Below are positions 24,659-27,153 of a stretch of DNA of 64,000 nt, one piece after another; position 1 is the first letter of the stretch; the number at the start of each line of letters is the position of its first letter. The translations under genes and the position numbers were made by a program. The notes beneath the pieces are model-generated. The model ran no database searches. It was not told the DNA's origin and worked only from the letters and a program-made list of their open reading frames with translations. Source of the DNA: an uncultured Commensalibacter sp. GTDB lineage: Bacteria; Pseudomonadota; Alphaproteobacteria; Acetobacterales; Acetobacteraceae. The stretch covers positions 124,001 through 188,000 of the forward strand of contig CALYOP010000002.1 in the NCBI GenBank assembly GCA_945266285.1, read 5' to 3'.

Positions 24659-25789
24659 ATGATAGAATATCTTCCTTTTTCTCCCCTTTTCCGTCTGGCT
24701 CAACCCAAACCAAAACCTGAGATTATAAATTTACGCCAGATTCCAGATACCAAACCATGGATCGTTCCTCCGTTAAAAATAGGAACCGTTGATTTAAAAT
24801 TATCGGGTATTGAAGATGAATGGGTTAAAAATCCTCCCAAACCCCATAATTCTTATAATTTTCTTTTAAATCACCCTATTATCAGTTCTGAGGGAGGTAT
24901 TATTCAAACCCGTGAAGGGTTTGTTATGGAAGATTCTTTAGACCACACTCAGGCTAAACTTGATCTTTATAAAATATCTGAAACGGGTATCGCTCTGCCA
25001 AAACCTAAAGAACAATTACATGGCTGTTGGTTAAGCCTTTTATTGGGAAATCAAGATAATTATTTTCATTTTCTTTTAATGAATTTAGGACGTTTGTCTC
25101 AACTTACACCTCAAGATATTGAAAAAATTGATGGCGTTTTATTACCTGAAGATTTAAAAAATGCAGCATTACAAGCGCTTCGCTTTGCACTTCTTCACGT
25201 CTTTAAAAGAAAAAATATTACGGTTAAATTAGTATCCAGAGGTCAATCTTTTAAAATTGATCATCTTTTTTTGCCGTGACTTCCAGTCTCTGCTCGAGCT
25301 TATACACATTCTGGAGTTGTTCAGTTTTTAAACCATTTATATCCAAAAACTTCATCTAAAAACTGGCCAAAACGTTTTTATATTGATCGAAGAAACGCAC
25401 AAAACCGTGTTTTGATTAATGAAAATGAATTGATTGAGGCCCTAAAATCACGTGGTTTTATCCCTATTCAACTAGAAAAACTTAGCTTTGGGCAGCAATG
25501 TGAACTCTTTGCAAATGCTGATTTTATTATAGGCGCTCATGGTGCAGGTTTAACCAATATCGTTTTTTCTTCACCAAAAACGATTATTATTGAATTAATT
25601 CCTCATGCCTTGGTACGCTGATGTTATCGGCAGTTAGCAATAGTAAATGATTTGATTTATGATTGTATCCTTACCCAAAGCTATGCCAACGAAATGACCC
25701 CACCTCCTTGGGCAGCACATCATGTTTTTATTGATCATGTAATGAAAGTTATTGATTTATATTTTCTTGATCATTTAAATCATAATTGA
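24659..25789 (+). pseudogene. GT61-type glycosyltransferase interrupted by two in-frame TGA codons
   Basis: Read through, the frame encodes 376 residues of a GT61 (DUF563-like) glycosyltransferase: the family hallmark ADFIIGAHGAGLTNIVF lies in the second segment, and YIDRRNAQNRVLINE precedes it. The frame never shifts over 1.1 kb, but TGA occurs at 25277-25279 and 25619-25621 before the final TGA at 25787. Neighbouring genes and this one use TGG for tryptophan, so general TGA reassignment is excluded. Both TGAs lie where a tryptophan would be plausible (the second before CYRQLA), consistent with two G-to-A changes. Probably a very young pseudogene; programmed readthrough is possible but unsupported. 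Three remaining pieces: 24659-25279, 25280-25621, 25622-25789. Confidence 0.8.
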
Positions 25790-25851: not shown

Positions 25852-27093
25852 ATGCCAAGTCCTGTTGTTCTTATAACTTTTGCCGGTCGCAAGAGACAAA
25901 TGACAATATTAGAGCATTATGTTCGTAAAGCGATGGAGGCAGGTTTTATAGATGAATGGCATATCTGGGATTTTACAAGACAGGAATCGGATACCATCTG
26001 GTTAGCTGATCATTTCAAACCAGTTGCTTTTATTTCAGCAGAAACAGGTTATCAAGCTTATGGTCAGTTCGACCTTGCTCAATGTTTTGAATTAACCGCT
26101 AAATCCCTAAATAATTTCCATATTGCAATCTGTCCAAAAAATGAATCCGATTATTTTTATGAAATTGTTATTGGTGGATGGATGAATACACAAACATCTC
26201 TACGCCGTGTGAAAAAAAATACATTTTCAGTTATTCATCGTGCAGAAGAAGATTTCGAAACTATATGGGGTACGCTTACACCTGGTATTGCAGCACCTGG
26301 CGTTTTTCAAAAATACAAATTCCTAATGATTGGGGAAAATCTTCATTTCTCTATTGGAGATCATGTATTTTTCAATATTGAAAAACTGAATATAACAGGT
26401 CCATGTGATATCTTCGTCCGAGGCGGTTATGGCGGTTGGGTTGAATTAAAATCCGATGCGCCTGTTCGGCGTTATGCGGGTGTTCCTACGGAAACCGCAC
26501 CTTATTTCCGGGCCTATAGTTATTACGCTCAAAATTATGAACAATATAAAGATACTTTGTTTCTTAAATGTGATGACGATATTGTTTATATGGATTATAA
26601 AAAATTAGGCGGTTTTATTGAATTTCGACGTAATAATCCTCATTATTTCCTGGTCAGTGCAAATGTTGTGAATAATGGGCTCTGCGCCTATTTACAACAA
26701 GAATCCGGTTACTTACCTAACAGCGTAGGTGACTTTGAGCTTCCCGTTAATGGATTTCACGGAACCTTATGGGAAAGTGGCGAAAAAGCCGTTAAATTAC
26801 ATGAATATTTTCTCTCTAATAATCTAAAAACGATGCATTTTAGACAACCTATTATTCGATGGGATTATTATGTATCCATTAATTTCGTATCTTGGCTGGG
26901 TCACGACCTAAAATATATGTTCTTACCTAGCTGCGACGATGAAAAAGTTCTCAGCGTTGATATTCCTGGCTATACACAGCGATCACACGCTTTCTATTCT
27001 GATTTTACGGTCAGTCATCTTAGTTTCTACCAACAAACCGTAGGTGCGGATTTTGATCCTATTCTTGATAAATATGAAGCTTTAATTCGGTAA
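25852..27093 (+). CDS. probable glycosyltransferase with an inserted FAMeT-like domain
   Basis: 413 residues, cytosolic by appearance. The first 80 residues (VVLITFAGRKRQMT, then EWHIWDFTR) and the part after 210 resemble a GT-A glycosyltransferase of capsule clusters: LFLKCDDDIVYMD with an acidic triplet at 241-243 as probable metal/sugar-nucleotide site. Between them, about 85-200, is a module like the FAMeT (Methyltransf_FA) domain: FHIAICP, EIVIGGWMNTQTSLRR (IGGWMNT at 107-113) and GGYGGWVEL at 191-199. In animals and some bacteria this module is thought to bind carbohydrates rather than methylate. The arrangement suggests an enzyme that holds its acceptor glycan. Sits directly after the broken GT61 gene (62-bp gap), with AGGA before the ATG, and is closed by a terminator. 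Confidence 0.6.
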   Translation: MPSPVVLITFAGRKRQMTILEHYVRKAMEAGFIDEWHIWDFTRQESDTIWLADHFKPVAFISAETGYQAYGQFDLAQCFELTAKSLNNFHIAICPKNESDYFYEIVIGGWMNTQTSLRRVKKNTFSVIHRAEEDFETIWGTLTPGIAAPGVFQKYKFLMIGENLHFSIGDHVFFNIEKLNITGPCDIFVRGGYGGWVELKSDAPVRRYAGVPTETAPYFRAYSYYAQNYEQYKDTLFLKCDDDIVYMDYKKLGGFIEFRRNNPHYFLVSANVVNNGLCAYLQQESGYLPNSVGDFELPVNGFHGTLWESGEKAVKLHEYFLSNNLKTMHFRQPIIRWDYYVSINFVSWLGHDLKYMFLPSCDDEKVLSVDIPGYTQRSHAFYSDFTVSHLSFYQQTVGADFDPILDKYEALIR

Positions 27094-27118
27094 TTCATTT
27101 TATTCTATAGTCTTTTAT

Positions 27119-27153
27119 AAAAGCCTCTTTTGAAAAGAGGCTTTTATTTTTTG
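27119..27153 (+). terminator. intrinsic terminator after the FAMeT-glycosyltransferase gene
   Basis: Perfect 12-bp stem (27119-27130, 27134-27145) with a tight three-base loop, followed by ATTTTTTG. Strong Rho-independent terminator; it isolates the accessory patch from polA. Confidence 0.9.

Follow-up and report, generated by a model that had tools for sequence, protein, structure and literature searches.

A lectin-like module predicted to interrupt the catalytic domain of a glycosyltransferase from Commensalibacter, with relatives in rhizobia and Nocardia

In the ppGalNAc-transferases, a lectin module is appended to the catalytic core. The protein described here, encoded in a 64,000-nucleotide stretch of DNA (the window) from an uncultured Commensalibacter sp. 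(contig CALYOP010000002.1, positions 124,001 to 188,000), instead carries a lectin-like module inside the core of a bacterial glycosyltransferase, and would as such represent a case of an enzyme that reads a glycan to place the next sugar. With respect to the core itself, the closest described systems are the phage glycosyltransferases of family phrog_4447, such as mycobacteriophage Dylan gp33 and gp108 of an M. abscessus prophage. These share the catalytic core and its DDD, DE and H residues, but they span 270–290 aa, are without the inserted module and in some cases adjoin TylF methyltransferases in virion glycosylation clusters. Relatives from cluster O phages belong to a group of clustered glycosyltransferase genes whose products reportedly modify the capsid and the tail-tube protein (PMC11600133). 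The DxD motif, the base and the His that binds metal follow one another in much the same way in the UDP-Galf transferases GlfT2 (mycobacterial) and GfsA (fungal), in which DxD plus His bind metal and a downstream Asp is the base (PMC11538602). A precedent for TPR-directed cytoplasmic O-glycosylation is provided by FlmG of Caulobacter, which transfers pseudaminic acid to flagellins (PMC7591256). The inserted module shares its profile with PF12248 proteins (Methyltransf_FA, FAMeT domain), with the difference that here the domain is embedded inside an enzyme. Our literature search found no account of PF12248 within a glycosyltransferase, and nothing useful on the ALTTAQ repeats discussed below.

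The open reading frame (Table 1) begins with an ATG, with AGGA upstream. An initial annotation had singled out the motifs IGGWMNT (residues 107–113) and GGYGGW together with an acidic triplet at residues 241–243, and all three lie where they were placed, the triplet being D241-D242-D243. Its assignment of a FAMeT-like module is likewise borne out, as PF12248 matched residues 72–127 of the 413-aa protein at E 7.4e-8 and 32.7 bits, above the curated cut-off of 24.2 bits; in homologues nearly the whole profile was matched (residues 67–207 at locus L073 and 85–211 at L076). The proposed glycosyltransferase identity is upheld by a predicted GT-A fold with DxD and by the PHROGs profile phrog_4447 ('glycosyltransferase'), which matched two stretches of the protein at E 2.5e-23, the better of them (residues 218–348) following the insert. 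The glycosyltransferase part had no Pfam match, the sole NCBIfam match of the protein was a meaningless sub-cut-off one to a sigma factor, and sequence searches of solved structures (PDB) gave nothing significant for either the protein or a 39-sequence profile. In two plasmid records, family proteins are annotated as hypothetical only.

Table 1. Coordinates of features in and around the insert-bearing glycosyltransferase gene (window positions)
Feature	Position	Strand	Length	Evidence or remark
Glycosyltransferase ORF with inserted FAMeT/galectin-like module	25852..27093	+	413 aa	PF12248, phrog_4447, AF2 model
GT-A domain, N-terminal part, residues 1–57 (TFAGR and DEWHIWDFTR motifs)	25852..26022	+		Model, conservation; kept in insert-less relatives
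Inserted PF12248 module, residues 58–201, predicted galectin fold	26023..26454	+		Profile, model; missing from insert-less relatives
GGW, residues 108–110	26173..26181	+		Conserved in 38–39/39 homologues
GGYGGW, residues 191–196	26422..26439	+		G192 invariant
GT-A domain, C-terminal part, residues ~215–413	26494..27090	+		Model, fold match, phrog_4447
DDD metal/nucleotide-sugar motif, residues 241–243	26572..26580	+		Invariant, insert-less phage relatives included
DDE, residues 362–364, proposed catalytic base	26935..26943	+		D363 and E364 invariant; analogy with GlfT2 D372, GfsA D335 (PMC11538602)
H389, proposed third metal ligand	27016..27018	+		Invariant; analogy with GlfT2 H396
Terminator-like hairpin with T tail, directly 3′ of ORF 25852–27093	27117..27147	+		Hairpin search
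Upstream GT61 gene, probable pseudogene (context only, not part of the enzyme)	24659..25789	+		Two in-frame TGA codons; PF04577 match

An AlphaFold2 model of the window protein (pLDDT 93.9, pTM 0.91), built from an alignment of 39 natural homologues, predicts that a galectin-fold β-sandwich (residues ~58–201) interrupts a GT-A domain (residues 1–57 plus ~215–413). Model and fold matches agree on the previously proposed β-sandwich within a Rossmann-like domain, and one continuous ordinary fold was not seen. The initial annotation had set the two GT-A parts before residue 80 and after residue 210; the model shifts just the end of the N-terminal part, to near residue 57. In VIA-align comparisons, residues 1–391 superposed on the GT-A enzyme B4GALNT1 (Z 12.6, 179 residues, 3.4 Å) and residues 59–200 on galectins, led by Toxascaris galectin (8zqi; Z 12.4, 118 residues, 2.3 Å); the likeness to this protein, galectin-3 and galectin-7 (Z about 12, ~10% identity) is one of predicted fold alone. 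The nearest solved folds for the core were B4GALNT1 (UDP-GalNAc), COLGALT1 (UDP-Gal) and GnT-I/II (UDP-GlcNAc), and since the top matches, at a low 7–18% identity, had Z values no better than those of other GT-A families, no CAZy family (GT12, GT25) is given. Among viral structures, the best match over the full length was to a Pithovirus protein that bears the name macrocin-O-methyltransferase (TM 0.52 relative to the query).

The predicted fold also bears on the Pfam family name, which would suggest farnesoic acid O-methyltransferase activity for the module and is the one point in favor of that reading. The modeled insert is an all-β sandwich with a galectin fold, unlike the α/β Rossmann domain of class I methyltransferases, and real TylF-type methyltransferases occur beside these enzymes as separate genes or C-terminal fusions. 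We accordingly rejected the insert as a class I methyltransferase, as the initial annotation had done, and regard such an activity as exceedingly improbable.

Relatives lacking residues ~58–201 exist and the core belongs to phrog_4447, so the PF12248 module is a true insertion into the GT-A core of this phage glycosyltransferase family. Insert-less forms were found in mycobacteriophages, other phage contigs, a giant-virus-like contig, one Acetobacteraceae genome and 3/199 Rhizobiaceae genomes (the last judged from matched ranges). Aligned with the insert-less set by hhalign (100%, E 2.4e-44), the family shows a gap that falls at the insert, and one insert-less phage protein was modeled as a complete GT-A domain (pLDDT 92.5; COLGALT1 Z 13.8, 215 residues, 3.6 Å). 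On a core-only tree, in which L004 and L176 form long branches, a single change accounts for the presence of the insert (support 91/89), as it does in 93% of the bootstrap trees. The galectin-fold module was probably inserted a single time, at a point that follows the first Rossmann strands and precedes the strand that binds the metal.

Several of these loci carry additional domains or genes. TylF-type methyltransferases lie beside or near insert-less phage relatives (L177:3787-4395, L178:3824-4387, L099:2193-2777), and in some Nocardia forms the enzyme is fused C-terminally to a TylF/Methyltransf_24 methyltransferase (L073:5983-8088, L074:5929-8112). The pairing in phages, the same as in the Nocardia fusions, suggests O-methylation of the added sugar. 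Locus L076 encodes the enzyme in two tandem copies, and the insert-less relative on the giant-virus-like metagenome contig (L176:1285-2739) carries a fused 2OG-Fe(II) oxygenase domain (PF13759).

In terms of catalysis, D241–D243, D363, E364 and H389 are kept in sequences with and without the insert, from phages and bacteria alike. The separation of D363 and H389 is 26 residues, as compared with 24 between D372 and H396 of GlfT2. By analogy, this layout supports a metal-dependent inverting enzyme, in which D241/D243 and H389 would hold the metal and UDP-sugar and D363 (or E364) would act as the base. A DxD/base/His layout is common among inverting GT-A families, and a profile comparison with GlfT2 found no homology (hhalign probability 0.3%, with a shallow query alignment of Neff 1.2), so the layout does not identify the donor.

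Within the insert, residues D88, H90, E104, GGW108–110, N112, R118, TP143–144, G192 and G194 are conserved across Rhizobiaceae, Acetobacteraceae and Nocardia. The insert as a whole evolves faster than the core, with mean identities to the window protein of 26% versus 50%, a pattern that would suit a protein-docking or oligomerization module recruiting a partner enzyme or acceptor protein in place of a sugar reader; β-sandwiches of the galectin-like kind also act in protein contacts. However, the compact set of conserved insert residues persists even where the GT41 and ALTTAQ partners described below are not nearby, and we consider docking a possible but rather unlikely role. In our preferred reading, the insert would grip the glycan of the acceptor, or the first sugar of that glycan, beside the active site.

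With respect to distribution, the survey of Acetobacteraceae suggested in the initial annotation detected PF12248 in 8/397 genomes, and all proteins read there show the same architecture. An even draw across the class recovered it in 2/240 genomes, from the window's genus only, so the architecture is rare and clustered. When a single genome was scanned for each species, 94 loci were obtained, 80 of which were kept, mainly from Rhizobiaceae, followed by Nocardia, Acetobacteraceae and a few others; the architecture is present in more than 70 species-level genomes, a few of them with two loci. The family is centered on Rhizobiaceae, where it accompanies a probable protein-glycosylation gene cluster, a setting that the initial annotation had not anticipated.

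The usual order of this cluster in Rhizobiales is an ALTTAQ-repeat protein, a TPR-GT41 O-glycosyltransferase, the insert-bearing glycosyltransferase gene and UDP-galactopyranose mutase (glf). The TPR-GT41 gene is present at 57/81 carrier loci, and in 50/81 it precedes the insert-bearing gene by no more than 200 nt in the same orientation. Long ALTTAQ-repeat ORFs, identified by direct repeat count, are also found at 50/81 loci; one example protein has 51 PF20080 matches, Ser plus Thr make up 27.6% of its residues, and it contains no Cys or Trp. Among 199 Rhizobiaceae genomes, the ALTTAQ protein was detected in 7/7 insert-bearing genomes versus 23/192 others (p 9e-7; with the centre genome left out, p 6e-6), although the genomes are related and the p-value overstates their independence. 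It was found in 0/3 Rhizobiaceae genomes with the insert-less form. ALTTAQ proteins are more widespread than the insert-bearing enzyme, which fits an elaborating enzyme acting after GT41.

Flagellin O-glycosylation by Caulobacter FlmG likewise combines TPR and GT41. The rhizobial TPR-GT41 enzyme adjoins a Ser/Thr-rich protein, sometimes near flagellins. In contrast to FlmG, its cluster adds glf and a second, lectin-bearing glycosyltransferase, and the acceptor in rhizobia is probably the ALTTAQ-repeat protein. The ALTTAQ-repeat proteins start MTSI(V/I)xSL (L096:2326-5757, L022:53-3661 and others), recalling the rhizobial flagellin start MTSIITNTG (L016:11623-12597), and judging from these N-termini a common export via the flagellar apparatus is possible.

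As for the donor, glf is located 49–160 nt downstream on the same strand at 43/81 carrier loci, distant Hyphomicrobiales MAGs included, and was found in 27/29 carrier genomes searched whole (it is missing from G654 and G662, both MAGs). We place galactofuranose as the donor at somewhat better than even odds. The same architecture and chemistry could also operate with another UDP-sugar (UDP-Gal, UDP-GlcNAc or UDP-Glc), with glf serving a different enzyme. The sugars used by the best solved folds and the lack of a GlfT2 profile match point in this direction, as do the carriers from which glf is missing and the 13/57 GT41 clusters with no adjacent glf. In particular, one Acetobacteraceae carrier genome (G349) is rated 100% complete yet has no glf, so galactofuranose may not be the universal donor, and within Acetobacteraceae the association of glf with PF12248 carriage was not significant (6/8 versus 166/389, p 0.07). 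Weighed against the recurrence of glf immediately 3′ of the gene in such distant genomes, a different donor strikes us as the less probable choice, at well under even odds.

Taken together, the best overall explanation, to which we assign a probability of about 0.5, is an inverting metal-dependent GT-A enzyme that probably uses UDP-Galf to lengthen a glycan while the lectin-like insert holds it. The protein, in which no transmembrane-like segment was found, would probably work in the cytoplasm, where it would read the sugar already in place and add the next one, most likely galactofuranose supplied via Glf. In Rhizobiales, the TPR-GT41 enzyme encoded just upstream would most likely have attached the preceding sugar to Ser/Thr residues of the ALTTAQ-repeat protein. 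The computations establish which domains are present, the inserted architecture, the homology of the core to insert-less forms, the conservation of the catalytic residues, the gene cluster and the co-occurrence; we infer the activity, donor, acceptor, order of steps and sugar binding by the insert. The galectin fold and the neighboring genes lend support to sugar binding and to action on a surface glycan, as proposed in the initial annotation. More tentatively, and with clearly less confidence, the two settings may be joined in one scheme: a rhizobial cytoplasmic system in which TPR-GT41 starts a glycan on giant ALTTAQ proteins and the galectin-bearing GT-A enzyme extends it with galactofuranose, and lone copies of the gene in Commensalibacter and in further Acetobacteraceae associated with insects, whose products read and extend on another surface acceptor. 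Such a rhizobial protein-glycosylation system would be an undescribed one; if the cluster model is true, the ALTTAQ repeats (PF20080) would gain a function, and plant symbionts would be indicated to have surface proteins decorated with galactofuranose. More generally, the design seen in this acetic acid bacterium of the gut, a sugar-adding enzyme with a catalytic domain interrupted by a lectin-like one, is rare. Plant-associated rhizobia and Nocardia also have it, and the enzyme probably decorates surface proteins or glycans.

The window genome holds a single copy of the gene. A search of this genome found neither the GT41 nor the ALTTAQ partner, so the acceptor there would be another surface glycan or glycoprotein; glf is present on another contig. 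The gene sits between the interrupted GT61 gene on its 5′ side, with in-frame TGA codons at 25277–25279 and 25619–25621 and a PF04577 match (E 1e-23) on its middle piece, and the terminator-like hairpin on its 3′ side, for which position is the main support, as the search found 1 such hairpin versus 1.3 expected by chance. Within the genus, 3/9 genomes carry the gene, among them G005, whose copy matches in its coordinates the one of Commensalibacter melissae AMU001, and the congeners' copies lie at another locus flanked by M16 peptidase-like ORFs. The tree places the window copy apart from C. melissae, with weak support (90/39). The window copy is probably a single gene that was gained independently, with an acceptor that differs from the rhizobial one.

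The two stops in the GT61 gene, the patchy presence in the genus and a broken second family copy in another of its genomes would also be expected of a decaying orphan gene with no present function in this host. The frame is nonetheless full-length and open and retains every residue invariant in the 39-sequence alignment, and we judge decay to be quite improbable. The second copy, in C. melissae, is split into two frames (L005:849-2154, G005; L094). The M16 peptidase-like ORFs that flank the gene in C. melissae and in one related genome (L071:3202-8006, L002) share near-identical sequence, as if insertion of the gene had duplicated part of a peptidase gene.
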